Below are positions 25,979 through 53,920 of a stretch of 59,511 bases of DNA, in pieces (position 1 is the stretch's first letter; the number at the start of each line of letters is the position of its first letter). Source of the stretch: Chloroflexota bacterium (GTDB lineage Bacteria > Chloroflexota > Anaerolineae > Anaerolineales > Villigracilaceae). The notes below the pieces were generated by a model. The model worked only from the letters and a program-made list of their open reading frames with translations. It searched no databases and had not been told where the DNA came from. The position numbers and the translations under genes were made by a program. Location: positions 1-59,511 of the forward strand of contig QMIW01000012.1 of assembly GCA_024434165.1 (NCBI GenBank), read 5' to 3'.

Positions 25979-26006
25979 CAGTCTCCAGTCTCTAATCTCC
26001 AATCCC
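25979..26006. repeat. Heptamer array overlapping the SDR gene stop
   Basis: Four 7-base units: CAGTCTC twice, TAATCTC, CAATCCC. The stop codon of the SDR gene lies in the third unit. Confidence 0.7.
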
Positions 26007-27011
26007 GTACCTCTTCCGAATCTCCGGCAGGAAGTATTCCTCGAAAAACCGGTCCACATCGTAATCGGGTTTCCAGTTCCAGTCCTTGCGGGCGCGGGAG
26101 TCGTTGATGTCTTCGGGCCACGAGTCCACGATGCCCTGGCGGCGCGGGTTCGGCTCGAAGGTAATTTCCGCATTCGGGAAGGCTTTCAGCGCGCGCTCGC
26201 GGAACTGCTCCGCCGTGATGGCGAACGCCGCCACGTTGTAGACGTTCGTCGTCAGTTTTTTACGCGGGGCATCCATCACCATCATCATGGATTTGATCGC
26301 ATCGGGCATCGCCATAAAGGAAATGATCGTATCCGGGCGGACGAAGCAGGCGTAAGGTCTGCCTTGAGCCGCGGCGTGGAGCATTTCGGGTCCGTAATCG
26401 CTCGTCCCGCCGCTGGGCAGGGTAAAGGCGCTGATCAACCCCGGGAAGCGGAGCGCCCGAAAGTCCAGCATGACCGGCGGGTGTTCATCCAAATGTTTCT
26501 GACCGTGGAACTTGCTGTAATACATCCCCAGCTTTTCACAGTACAACTTGTTGCATCCATACATCGTGTGCGGATAATCCCACTCCTCCTCCTTCACCGC
26601 GCCCGCCCTGCGTTTCGCTTCGATATCCGGCATCCCATACGCCGCAATCGAACTTGGGAAGATGAACTTCACTGCCTTGCCGTATTTCTCCGAACGGTAC
26701 GCCGCCAGCATCAGCAGCTGCATCGTCCCTTCCACGTTGATGCGATGCGCCTCCTCGGTGGCAACTTCCGCTTTGGAGGAGAGCGAAGCCGCCAGGTGGA
26801 AGATCACATCGAAGTCGTAATCGTAAAAAACCTTTACCTTATAAACCAGGTCCCCCTGTACATGTTCCGCTGCCAGGTCTTTGATCGAATCCGGCAGCGG
26901 CGCCAGGTCTGATGTTACGATTTTGTACCCGCCCCGTTTTGCCAGTTCCTGCACGAGCGCCTGACCAATCTCTCCACACGCACCTGTCACCAGCACCTGC
27001 TTTTCGGTCAT
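25992..27011 (-). CDS. SDR-type L-threonine 3-dehydrogenase-like NAD-dependent epimerase
   Basis: A 339-residue extended short-chain dehydrogenase. The NAD site is VTGACGEIGQALVQEL (TGxxGxIG) and the catalytic pair is Tyr and Lys in YGCNK. RFPGLISAFTLPSGGTSDYGPEML and SWPEDINDSRARKDWNWKPDY match the SDR-type threonine dehydrogenases rather than sugar epimerases. That is a family judgement; the reaction would oxidise L-threonine to 2-amino-3-ketobutyrate. Start set at 27011 (MTEKQVLV) because AGGAG sits six bases upstream; an ATG two codons earlier abuts the site. The last codons fall in a repeat. Confidence 0.85.
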   Translation of the reverse strand: MTEKQVLVTGACGEIGQALVQELAKRGGYKIVTSDLAPLPDSIKDLAAEHVQGDLVYKVKVFYDYDFDVIFHLAASLSSKAEVATEEAHRINVEGTMQLLMLAAYRSEKYGKAVKFIFPSSIAAYGMPDIEAKRRAGAVKEEEWDYPHTMYGCNKLYCEKLGMYYSKFHGQKHLDEHPPVMLDFRALRFPGLISAFTLPSGGTSDYGPEMLHAAAQGRPYACFVRPDTIISFMAMPDAIKSMMMVMDAPRKKLTTNVYNVAAFAITAEQFRERALKAFPNAEITFEPNPRRQGIVDSWPEDINDSRARKDWNWKPDYDVDRFFEEYFLPEIRKRYGIGD

Positions 27012-27033
27012 CTTCATCTCCTGATATACTGGA

Positions 27034-27058
27034 ATGTCGTAACTTTATTTTACGACAT
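27034..27058. promoter_or_regulatory. 8-bp inverted repeat between divergent genes
   Basis: ATGTCGTA and TACGACAT around a 9-base AT-rich centre, between the SDR gene and the divergent lipoprotein gene. It could be an operator for either; no regulator is known. Confidence 0.4.
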
Positions 27059-27078
27059 AATGAAATGAATTGATGTCA

Positions 27079-27084
27079 TAAAAT
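27079..27084 (+). promoter_or_regulatory. -10 box of the lipoprotein gene
   Basis: TAAAAT ten bases before the ATG at 27095. The earlier ATG at 27083 overlaps this box, so it is not used as start here. Confidence 0.45.
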
Positions 27085-27094
27085 GCGTATCCTA

Positions 27095-27168
27095 ATGTCA
27101 TTGCAAAGCAGTCTCCTGGGTATTTGGAGATTGCTCCGCCGCTCATTCCATCCGCTCCTCGCGGTGAC
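27095..27168. repeat. ATGTCATTGC-family element encoding the signal peptide
   Basis: Starts ATGTCATTGC, contains AAGCAGTCTCC facing GGAGATTGCT and ends GCTCCTCGCGGTGACG. The layout is that of the element at 53834-53920, but slightly degraded. The start codon of the lipoprotein is the first three bases. Confidence 0.7.
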
Positions 27169-27916
27169 GCTGCTGACTTCCTGCTCTGCAATGGATGCGT
27201 GGCTCGCCACGCCCACGCCGGTCATCCCAACGGAGACCCCGCTTCCCACTGCGACCATTAACTGGTTCCCGCCATCGGCAACTCCCACGCCCCAGGCTTT
27301 CACCACCAAAGCCCCCACCCCGGAGATGCGTCCCGGTCTCGGCGCAGAACTCGTCACCGACGACTTCTCCCGATCCTCCCTGTGGGAAACTGCCGCCTCC
27401 GACGAAGCCAGCGCGGAGATCATTGACAACCGCCTGACGCTCGCCGTACAAAGCCAGGTCTACATGACCAGCCTGCGCCGCGACCTGCTCATCGAAGACT
27501 ACTATGCCGAGATCACCGCCCAGCCCAGCCTGTGCCGCGGCGAAGATAGTTACGGCATCCTCGTGCGCGCGAACGGCGGCTCGTATTATCGTTTTGCGCT
27601 GGCGTGCAACGGCACGGTCCGCGCGGAACGGGTGACGAACAGTATCAGGCTCATCCTGCAGCAGCCGCTCCCCAGCGGGGACGTGCCTCCCGGCGCGCCA
27701 GGCAGCGTCCGCATTGGGGTGTGGGCGGTGGGCAGGGAAATGCGGCTCTTCCTCAACGGGCGATTCCAGTTCAGCATCAGCGATCCCAGTTTCCCCATTG
27801 GCACCCTGGGGGTCTTCGTCCGTTCGGCAGGCGAGACTGCGGCGGTTGTCTCGTTTACCGATTTGGTGATTCAAGAAGTGGATTATGTTTTGCCTACTCC
27901 AACGGCAATACCGTGA
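27095..27916 (+). CDS. Lipoprotein with Thr/Pro linker and LamG/3-keto-disaccharide hydrolase-like domain
   Basis: A 273-residue secreted lipoprotein. The signal peptide region (LLRRSFHPLLAVTLLTSCSA) ends in lipobox LTSC. A Thr/Pro-rich linker follows (TPTPVIPTETPLPTAT). Next comes a beta-sandwich domain from about residue 90 (ELVTDDFSRSSLWE; DSYGILVRANGGSYYRFALACNG; GVWAVGREMRLFLNGRFQF) resembling concanavalin-A-like domains. Ligand unknown. The signal peptide lies within a dispersed repeat, which is odd. The stop overlaps the next heptamer array. Start judged from the promoter. Confidence 0.75.
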   Translation: MSLQSSLLGIWRLLRRSFHPLLAVTLLTSCSAMDAWLATPTPVIPTETPLPTATINWFPPSATPTPQAFTTKAPTPEMRPGLGAELVTDDFSRSSLWETAASDEASAEIIDNRLTLAVQSQVYMTSLRRDLLIEDYYAEITAQPSLCRGEDSYGILVRANGGSYYRFALACNGTVRAERVTNSIRLILQQPLPSGDVPPGAPGSVRIGVWAVGREMRLFLNGRFQFSISDPSFPIGTLGVFVRSAGETAAVVSFTDLVIQEVDYVLPTPTAIP

Positions 27917-29276: not shown

Positions 29277-30656
29277 ATGAACCGGCGTGCGCTCGCAATT
29301 CTTGTCGTCCTTTCTTCGCTTGCCTGCAATTTTTTGACGGGCATGCTCGAAGGCTCCACCCCAACCCCGCCGCCCCCAACGCCCATTCCTGCCACCGCAA
29401 CGCCGGCGATTCCCACTCCGGCATATATCCCAGCCGCCTGCCAGAACCAGCCGCTCGCCACCGTGCCCGCCGCCACCGCACTGGCGGAACCGACGCCCTT
29501 CCTGCTGGATAATCCCGACGTTCCGCCGGAACTTCAATTGCAGGTTTTCGACGATGTGGTCAGTGTGATCGAAGACGTGTACGTTTACCCCGATTTCAAC
29601 GGCGTGGATTGGGAAGGACTCAAAAAGACTCACCGTGAAAAAATCGAAGCGGGTGTGGATACCAAAACGTTTTATGAAACCGTGCAAGCCCTCGTCGCCG
29701 AATTGAACGACGACCATTCCTATCTCGAATCGCCGGTGGAAGTTGCCGTATCCGAAGCGCAGCTGGCAGGCACCGATGAGTTCGTGGGCATTGGCGCGTT
29801 CATCCTGCCGTTCGAGGAAAAAGGTCACGTCACGCTGATCTTCGCCTACCCCAATTCGCCCGCCGAACACGCCGGTTTGAAAGCGCACGACAGCATCCTT
29901 GCCGCGGATGGACTGCCCATCATTCAGGACGGCGAAGCGCGCATCGAACTCGTTCGTGGACCGGAATGCTCGGCAGTGGTGCTCACCGTCCAGTCGCCCG
30001 GCGAAGCGCCGCGCCAGGTGATGGTCGTCCGCGAGCGGATTCAAAGCCCGATGGTGATTCAAGCCAGCCTCCTGCCCACTTCCGACGGATCGCGCGTCGG
30101 TTACATTTTCCTGCCCACGTTCTTCGACCAGACCATCCCCGACCAGGTGCGGAATGCGCTCGAAAACTTCGGCCCGCTGGACGGCTTGATTTTGGATAAC
30201 CGCCTCAACGGCGGCGGGAGCAGCAGTGTGGTGGAGCCTTTGCTTTCCTTTTTTGCTTCCGGCAGGCTTGGCTCTTTCACCAGCCGCAGGGAGTCCAACC
30301 CGCTCACCATCGAGGCGGACCCGATCCACAACTCGCAGACCGTGCCGCTGGTTATCCTCGTCAGCGAAGATACCGTCAGTTTCGGCGAAATCTTCTCCGG
30401 CGTCCTGAGGGATGCGGGGCGCGCCAAAATCGTCGGCGAGCCCACGCTGGGCAACGTCGAAATCCTGCACGGTTACGAATTCGACGACGGCTCGATTCTG
30501 TGGATTGCGGAGGAAACTTTTGTGCCGGCAAATTCGTCCGAGAACTGGGAAGAAACCGGCATCGTGCCGGACGTCATCGCCCATGCGGATTGGGACACCT
30601 TCACCTTCGAAAACGACCCGTCCATTCAGGCGGCGGTCCGATTACTTGGGCATTAG
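29277..30656 (+). CDS. S41-like peptidase lipoprotein, catalytic Lys replaced by Asn
   Basis: A 459-residue lipoprotein with lipobox LSSLAC17 and a Thr/Pro linker to about residue 75. A PDZ-like region follows (FEEKGHVTLIFAYPNSPAEHAGLKAHDSILAADG), then the tail-specific protease core (LDGLILDNRLNGGGSSSVVEPLLSFF). The serine S368 in VSFGEIFSG matches the S41 nucleophile. The general-base lysine expected 25 residues later is N393 (PTLGN). H147 in DDHSYL could support a tricorn-like arrangement, but that is speculative; the enzyme may be inactive or use another base. Start has GGAG upstream. Confidence 0.85.
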   Translation: MNRRALAILVVLSSLACNFLTGMLEGSTPTPPPPTPIPATATPAIPTPAYIPAACQNQPLATVPAATALAEPTPFLLDNPDVPPELQLQVFDDVVSVIEDVYVYPDFNGVDWEGLKKTHREKIEAGVDTKTFYETVQALVAELNDDHSYLESPVEVAVSEAQLAGTDEFVGIGAFILPFEEKGHVTLIFAYPNSPAEHAGLKAHDSILAADGLPIIQDGEARIELVRGPECSAVVLTVQSPGEAPRQVMVVRERIQSPMVIQASLLPTSDGSRVGYIFLPTFFDQTIPDQVRNALENFGPLDGLILDNRLNGGGSSSVVEPLLSFFASGRLGSFTSRRESNPLTIEADPIHNSQTVPLVILVSEDTVSFGEIFSGVLRDAGRAKIVGEPTLGNVEILHGYEFDDGSILWIAEETFVPANSSENWEETGIVPDVIAHADWDTFTFENDPSIQAAVRLLGH

Positions 30657-53833: not shown

Positions 53834-53920
53834 ATGTCATTGCGGGGAGCGGCAGCCCCGAAGCAGTCTCCACCGAATAGATAAGATTGCTTCGACCATT
53901 TCGCAGTCTCGCAATGACAT
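53834..53920. repeat. ATGTCATTGC palindrome, long copy
   Basis: Outer arms ATGTCATTGCG / CGCAATGACAT; inner AAGCAGTCTC facing AAGATTGCTTC. Lies between the LuxR and HtrA genes and overlaps the last base of the HtrA stop codon. Confidence 0.88.

Follow-up and report, generated by a model that had tools for sequence, protein, structure and literature searches.

In a member of the Chloroflexota, a mobile palindromic repeat has probably supplanted the signal peptide of an old surface lipoprotein, and the same replacement seems to have recurred at this site across the genus. The window, that is, the whole stretch of 59,511 nucleotides analysed here, comes from contig QMIW01000012.1 of a Chloroflexota bacterium (GTDB Villigracilaceae), whose own genome of 4.4 Mb is labelled G000. 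In the proposed mechanism, the ancestral state would be a surface lipoprotein with an ordinary short signal peptide, and in the lineage of the window the coding part of its n- and h-regions would have been replaced by a repeat copy. In the fitting frame the repeat would be translated roughly as Met-Ser-Leu-Arg-Gly ... Arg-Arg ... Leu-Leu-Ala-Met-Thr, a positive stretch followed by a hydrophobic end, and this end together with the retained lipobox would rebuild a lipoprotein signal peptide. The mature protein would be unchanged because signal peptidase II is predicted to cut off the repeat-derived peptide. The same signal peptide would have been filled several times by the repeat and also by other insert-like sequences, and other lipoproteins likewise.

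The translation of the gene begins MRILMSLQSSLLGIWRLLRRSFHPLLAVTLLTSCSAMDAW, and searches of the protein against Pfam and NCBIfam matched no family. Signal peptides were assessed by lipobox, charge and Kyte-Doolittle hydropathy only, and this heuristic predicts a bacterial lipoprotein with an LTSC lipobox, a best 9-residue hydropathy of 2.11 and a net charge of +5 upstream. The lipobox Cys is present in 53 tabulated orthologue rows, with Ser at position -1 in 50 and Ala in three, a conservation that is partly by construction, a Cys following S, G or A having served as the anchor of each row. The mature part was modelled from six sequences as a concanavalin A-like beta sandwich (mean pLDDT 68.6, pTM 0.65), and the top PDB matches of this model in a fold search were GH16 laminarinases and CBM66 modules (E 6e-8). 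From these matches we propose that the product is plausibly a surface carbohydrate-binding lipoprotein. The alignments also place the 5' end of the divergent epimerase/dehydratase gene next to the lipoprotein gene in several relatives.

Table 1. Features of the lipoprotein locus, with coordinates in the window.
Feature	Position	Strand	Basis or remark
CDS, predicted surface lipoprotein, 277 aa	27083..27916	+	ORF list
Likeliest start codon ATG, upstream of the repeat	27083..27085	+	Register comparison with relatives
Degenerate repeat copy, 75 bases, in-frame translation MSLQSSLLGIWRLLRRSFHPLLAVT	27095..27169	+	Motif counts, nhmmer, element-end comparison
Lipobox L-T-S-C	27173..27184	+	Predicted lipidated Cys at 27182-27184
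Mature lipoprotein: Thr/Pro-rich linker, then beta sandwich	27185..27913	+	Alignment, structure model, fold search
Conserved leader box TTTTACGACA	27048..27057	+	Between candidate promoter and start; alignments
Candidate -10 motif TATACT	27025..27030	+	TG at 27022-27023 ahead; not called by consensus scan
NAD-dependent epimerase/dehydratase, divergent neighbour	25992..27017	-	Pfam PF01370, E 3e-22

The repeat was recognised by the 10-mer ATGTCATTGC, of which the window contains five copies where 0.17 would be expected, a number reached in none of 100 shuffles. As a left end it was found 127 times in the 4.4-Mb genome, versus three times for the reversed control. The 21 paired copies that were read are dispersed palindromes of 41-234 bp with a variable middle and near-constant ends (ATGTCATTGCGAG ... 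CTCGCAATGACAT) and, as in MITE or palindromic families, many dispersed copies bear terminal inverted repeats. Identity with a known RNA family was rejected, since the best Rfam scores at 26900-27400 (21 and 12.8 bits) were far under the gathering thresholds of 80 and 100.

For the copy in the signal peptide, 16 intact copies lying elsewhere in the same genome, all outside the window, were combined into an nhmmer profile. It matched positions 27101-27167 with an E value of 5.4e-6 on the plus strand and of 2.4e-5 at the same place on the minus strand, whereas the best match in the reversed window was 2.2. The in-frame palindromic repeat that the original prediction had placed at 27095-27168 is therefore upheld, as a degenerate copy ending at 27169. 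Part of its left arm is missing and, on folding, the inner stem forms and the element as a whole is weak (z -1.4). Of the three frames of the right end, one gives Leu-Ala-Met-Thr, one contains TGA and one gives Arg-Asn-Asp, the hydrophobic end thus coming from the first only; the left end, where it lies in the Leu-Ala-Met-Thr frame, reads Met-Ser-Leu-Arg. In the window, the repeat immediately precedes the lipobox in the same frame, and its right end runs into LLTSC, with the Cys at 27182. The hydrophobic segment had been attributed to the repeat all the way to LTSC; this is right for LLAVT, but the h-region LLAVTLLTS also includes retained residues.

The age of the protein relative to the repeat was addressed with orthologues. 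Of 57 searched genomes of the genus, 55 gave matches, and 52 of these were accepted as having orthologues; among the remaining five, three had weak matches (best E 2.5e-9 or weaker) and two had none. The sister G017, grouped with G000 with a support of 100/90 in the tree and 94% identical in the mature part, is repeat-free and has the signal peptide MTFKRFSLSVLVTMLLTSC. Repeat-free lipoprotein signal peptides are also present in G025 (87% identical, MTMTFKRFLISTLLANFLVSC) and G018 (79% identical, MTVTFKRIFLSTLLAGWLSAC), and a peptide of MTFK/MTLK type is common to these three genomes and to G030b, G032, G063 and G074. When the window gene is aligned with that of G017, the ancestral h-region codons are absent from it, and they were presumably lost with or after the insertion. 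Eight rows from outside the genus were compared as well: each has a lipobox, and no repeat motif at two mismatches or fewer lies in the 420 nt that precede the matched part of any of them. Because the orthologues of repeat-free relatives are already lipoproteins, the repeat replaced an existing signal peptide; as judged from these alignments, the lipoprotein predates the repeat, which took over the older peptide. The comparison with repeat-free relatives, which had been put forward as the check on the original prediction, thus bore out that the repeat changed the signal peptide, the peptide of the repeat-free orthologues being a different one, but it also revealed that the protein was of the exported type already. 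The pattern is that of the Delihas type, with part of the signal peptide encoded by the repeat in G000 and unrelated signal peptides in G017, G025 and others. In addition, the insertion is in frame in a conserved gene under selection: the frame is open, and the mature part gave a dN/dS of 0.14 and a dS of 0.19 between the window gene and G017, indicative of purifying selection.

The distribution of the repeat over the genus was scored in 54 orthologue rows by a strict rule, namely at least two of four repeat motifs with two mismatches or fewer upstream of the lipobox Cys; at this level each motif appears in at most about 1.1% of shuffled regions. Two or more motifs were found in 20 rows, one in nine and none in 25, and in the single-motif rows G032 and G074 the motif lay upstream of the coding part. 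By hand, 53 rows were labelled as 19 clear, nine partial or decayed, two other insert-like (G005 and G036) and 23 without insert. The labels disagree for G034, G008 and G073, which pass the strict rule and were hand-labelled partial, for G062 and G070, which were hand-labelled clear although each has a single motif, and for G065, in which none of the motifs passes. G030, at a contig edge, was kept out of the hydropathy table and the fragment G030b out of the tree, and G063 contributes two rows. On well-supported branches of the mature-part tree, at least seven state changes are forced with the strict label and at least nine with the hand labels. A single clade of hand-labelled bearers was rejected by the AU test (p-AU 1.6e-78), as was a G000+G014+G035 clade (p-AU 3e-8). 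Presence of the repeat is therefore scattered on this tree. It is also clustered, since none of 500 shuffles was as low with the strict label, and so part of the presence is inherited.

The elements themselves were also compared. Of 19 elements, 15 have their right end 12 or 15 nt before the Cys; in the other four, which include G062 with its poor match at the right end, the distance is 24-27 nt. The left junctions, in turn, lie at 33, 42-43, 47, 51-52, 57-58, 61 and 64 nt from the conserved leader box, the junction at 57-58 nt being common to G001, G021, G026, G028, G029, G072 and G077. Thus, in the aligned rows the right junction is near-fixed and the left one varied. Element similarity and gene similarity gave a Spearman coefficient of -0.14 (p 0.06, 171 pairs), and the median element similarity in the 164 pairs with a gene identity below 0.80 was 0.67, versus 0.68 to unrelated G000 copies. 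G019 and G080 have 91% element identity yet 72% gene identity. The element is shared by the near-identical pair G021/G072, and other close pairs are moderately alike (0.78 for G001/G077 and 0.76 for G028/G031), values below the 95th percentile of unrelated copies (0.80). The elements thus carry little vertical signal in these comparisons. We read these data as one site that was refilled repeatedly, by insertion or recombination, with some inheritance in addition, the frame and the hydrophobic segment being selected.

With regard to the route, the window allele could be a 5' region acquired by homologous recombination from a repeat-bearing relative and not a new transposition. This would be compatible with the replacement of the signal peptide, and we consider it unlikely. 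In its favour, the leader of the window (about 44 nt) matches G028, G025 and G077 at 88-91% and the sister G017 at 73%. Moreover, if the insertion is younger than the split of G000 and G017 (dS 0.19), the copy has diverged rather far, which leaves room for the import of an older allele. However, the leader is too short to decide, the repeat-free G025 is as close as G028, and no near-identical element was found among the compared repeat-bearing orthologues (0.48-0.62 in the G000 pairs shown). Even less probable is one ancient insertion in the ancestor of the genus, vertically inherited and often lost or decayed, of which the window would retain a copy. The clustered presence, the 57-58 nt left junction common to several lineages and the state of G004 beside G015, which looks like decay, agree with it; however, the MTFK/MTLK-type peptide of repeat-free relatives would have to return each time, the element sequences have little vertical signal and there are several left junctions.

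Besides the repeat, other palindrome-like or repeat-like sequences were observed at the same signal-peptide site at L024 (G005), L036 (G036) and L089 (G076), where the sequences are translated as ETRASADGRGEKKIRVHLRLSASQ and KHKGHKGALSKKLRVLSVFCVKAF and correspond to a CGACATAAATGTCG-type palindrome, respectively. Because these loci bear other insert-like sequences, the site seems open to several repeat families. A second insert-like segment (GCTGGTCGAGTAG...CGAGACCA), apparently nested, was seen within the first repeat at L085 (G061), L030 (G016), L065 (G070), L055 (G062) and L025 (G026).

Peptides were also compared by hand label, with the first ATG that follows the leader box taken as their first residue. 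Those bearing the repeat have a median of 52 residues versus 20 for repeat-free ones and a charge of +5 versus +3, and their h-regions are slightly less hydrophobic (median hydropathy 2.48 in repeat-derived and 2.91 in repeat-free peptides). The repeat-bearing signal peptides look workable more than optimised, as would be expected if the insertions are tolerated more than favoured. Insertions presumably survive because signal peptides need little beyond charge, hydrophobicity and the lipobox.

The original prediction took the first three bases of the repeat, the ATG at 27095, as the start codon. Likelier is the in-frame ATG at 27083, 12 nt upstream, as an ATG in this register is found in 17 of the 38 relatives with a findable preceding box; the sister G017 lacks it and has AAG. 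From 27083 the peptide would be translated, exported and cleaved. Possible alternative starts are the ATG at 27095 and the TTG at 27134, within the repeat. A start of the latter kind (TTG 27134, for example, giving MLRRSFHPLLAVTLLTSC) would make the right arm the signal peptide and the left arm leader RNA. The resulting peptide has a normal lipoprotein length, and by eye no ribosome-binding site is visible before 27083 or 27095. Nevertheless such a start is improbable, as the frame is open through the repeat in repeat-bearing relatives, in the FGE-sulfatase family described below the start lies upstream of the repeat and has AGGAGGTG ahead of it, and G028, G031 and G014 are among the relatives without TTG at that place. 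As for the promoter, the -10 box that had been placed 10 bases before the repeat is apparently TAAAAT at 27079-27084, which overlaps the start at 27083, and a consensus scan of 26950-27250 found no sigma-70-type promoter. TATACT (Table 1) is a better candidate on comparative grounds, since in 38 of 53 rows TATACT or TATGCT is found at most 45 nt before the leader box, with TATGCT in many relatives. Finally, that the repeat created a new exported protein and supplied its start codon, as was first claimed, is hardly credible, and as regards the origin of the protein it is rejected: the ATG of the repeat is indeed in frame and the lipobox follows the repeat directly, but repeat-free orthologues have lipoprotein signal peptides in relatives of the genus and in the eight outside rows, and the ATG at 27083 is upstream of the repeat.

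Replacement of signal peptides by the repeat was then looked for in other genes. The right end of the repeat followed by an in-register lipobox was matched in 14 of the 57 genomes of the genus, in this gene in 10 and elsewhere in four, and the reversed control gave one match. One of the four, L160, was dropped, as it has eight codons after the Cys. A second case in the own genome, on contig C19, is MKHILMSLRGGAERRRSN...STIALAMTLLASC on an FGE-sulfatase lipoprotein (PF03781, E 1e-32), with AGGAGGTG ahead of the start and the start upstream of the repeat. For this family, 30 of 35 matches listed were read, those with loci (about 49-100% identity); the repeat (at least two motifs) was found in eight of these 30 genus homologues, one of them decayed (G017), and in most of the rest the peptide is short and starts with MKR or a similar sequence. 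This set of homologues may comprise two subfamilies. An esterase-like lipoprotein of G036 carries a repeat signal peptide too. As a control, the S41 peptidase lipoprotein at 29277 showed the repeat in none of 13 rows, the G017 row being left out as it begins mid-gene. The S41 orthologue of G017 appears as two overlapping matches, L364 and L365 (G017:C2:2900670-2901978), probably split by a frameshift or an assembly error.

In the census of G000, two of 100 examined left-end copies (of the 127) lie in lipoprotein signal peptides; the C114 and C120 places were left out of it, and for 19 copies the available context was limited to about 450-640 bases. Of 28 right ends in a G021 sample of 800 kb, none lies in a lipoprotein signal peptide. 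Per genome, such cases are not common. The lipoprotein heuristic applied to the whole window found only this gene; as the S41 peptidase lipoprotein escaped it, it was not used for counts.

A broad scan of public genomes gave, among the matches listed, at least 100 codons after the Cys in 13 of 36 in-register matches with the repeat signature and in none of 32 out-of-register ones (Fisher 7e-5; 0.002 without the five rows of this gene, which are among the 13). The frame control is, however, partly confounded: a lipoprotein-like h-region is spelled by the in-register pattern alone, and among the matches listed 23 of 37 in-register ones without the repeat signature also have long frames. Four of the 13 (L192, L206, L212 and L255) look like chance frames and were dropped as examples. 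The other four comprise an ApbE lipoprotein of Omnitrophota (L225; PF02424, E 4e-91), the FGE-like family again, in a further Chloroflexota record (L219), a lipoprotein of Kapaibacterium (L230) and a Bacteroidota protein that looks exported and has the repeat-like N-terminus RHCEALRSNPQHTQGDCFVRKAVLAMTLLFSCCAFSFAQ (L214). Since this last N-terminus looks like a Sec signal peptide, the phenomenon is perhaps wider than lipoproteins, and repeat-derived signal peptides may occur beyond them.

The repeat was also observed in other parts of genes. An intact copy at 53834-53920 of the window lies near the 3' end of another long frame, and several G000 copies are near the ends of long frames, where they translate as MSLRG, as if the repeat were an occasional supplier of protein C-termini. 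At L107 (G000:C99:20380-20870, minus strand) the same repeat is in frame within a WD40-like beta-propeller protein (Pfam PD40, E 2.7e-13), which by its predicted domain is an insertion of the Rickettsia type in a mature domain.

More tentatively, and with less confidence than in the replacement itself, we suggest that the repeat family, perhaps with others having an open frame of the type ...RR...LLAMT, might act as a portable signal-peptide module. Placed in register before a lipobox it would replace the old peptide, so that mobile DNA, besides point mutation, would drive the turnover of signal peptides in several phyla (Chloroflexota, a single Omnitrophota ApbE locus, L225, and two Bacteroidota loci, L230 and L214); some signal peptides in which a repeat is by now hardly recognisable (G004 and the second lipoprotein of G017) would then be decayed insertions.

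The origin of new signal peptides is rarely visible, as these peptides evolve fast and align poorly. Here, depending on the member of one genus, the same lipoprotein has the ancestral peptide, a fresh or a nested repeat, another insert or a decayed remnant, and the feeding of signal-peptide evolution by mobile palindromes becomes directly testable. It is also a warning that in such genomes homology alone is insufficient for annotating start sites and signal peptides. In the literature searched, which covered few subscription papers, no description was found of this repeat or of the recurrent filling of one signal peptide by palindromes, and among the publications carrying 11-mers of the repeat as printed sequence none was, by titles and abstract openings, about this repeat.

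Comparison with known systems places the case among small repeats that enter genes. REP and MITE repeats are high-copy palindromes located mostly outside genes and in some cases inside them (PMC3733652), and the repeat described here is alike in being high-copy, palindromic, mostly extragenic and sometimes intragenic. Target sequence is missing here with respect to repeat-free relatives. The palindromic elements of Rickettsia, of roughly 100-150 bp, are inserted in frame in many protein-coding genes, which nevertheless persist as genes (Ogata et al. 2000 via PMC2229807, PMC10969869). The likeness to them is in behaviour only, that is, an in-frame insertion with the gene kept; as portrayed in those sources they add to the product, whereas here the insert replaces sequence in a part predicted to be cut off. 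The closest parallel is the Yersinia protein YPO1552: a YPAL/RU-2 MITE encodes its first 30 residues, within the predicted signal peptide, and the signal peptides of its homologues from other genera bear no relation to that MITE (Delihas 2007, PMC2759123; 2007/2008, PMC2229807). In both cases, a small palindromic repeat in frame forms part of a signal peptide and the peptides of homologues are unrelated. The present proteins, however, are lipoproteins of Chloroflexota, with what is apparently another repeat. Moreover, YPO1552 is one locus, whereas here many species have the same site filled, the element turns over and more than one gene family is involved. A signal peptide built by a MITE is thus already known from Delihas as a single case, and what is new is its recurrence at one site.
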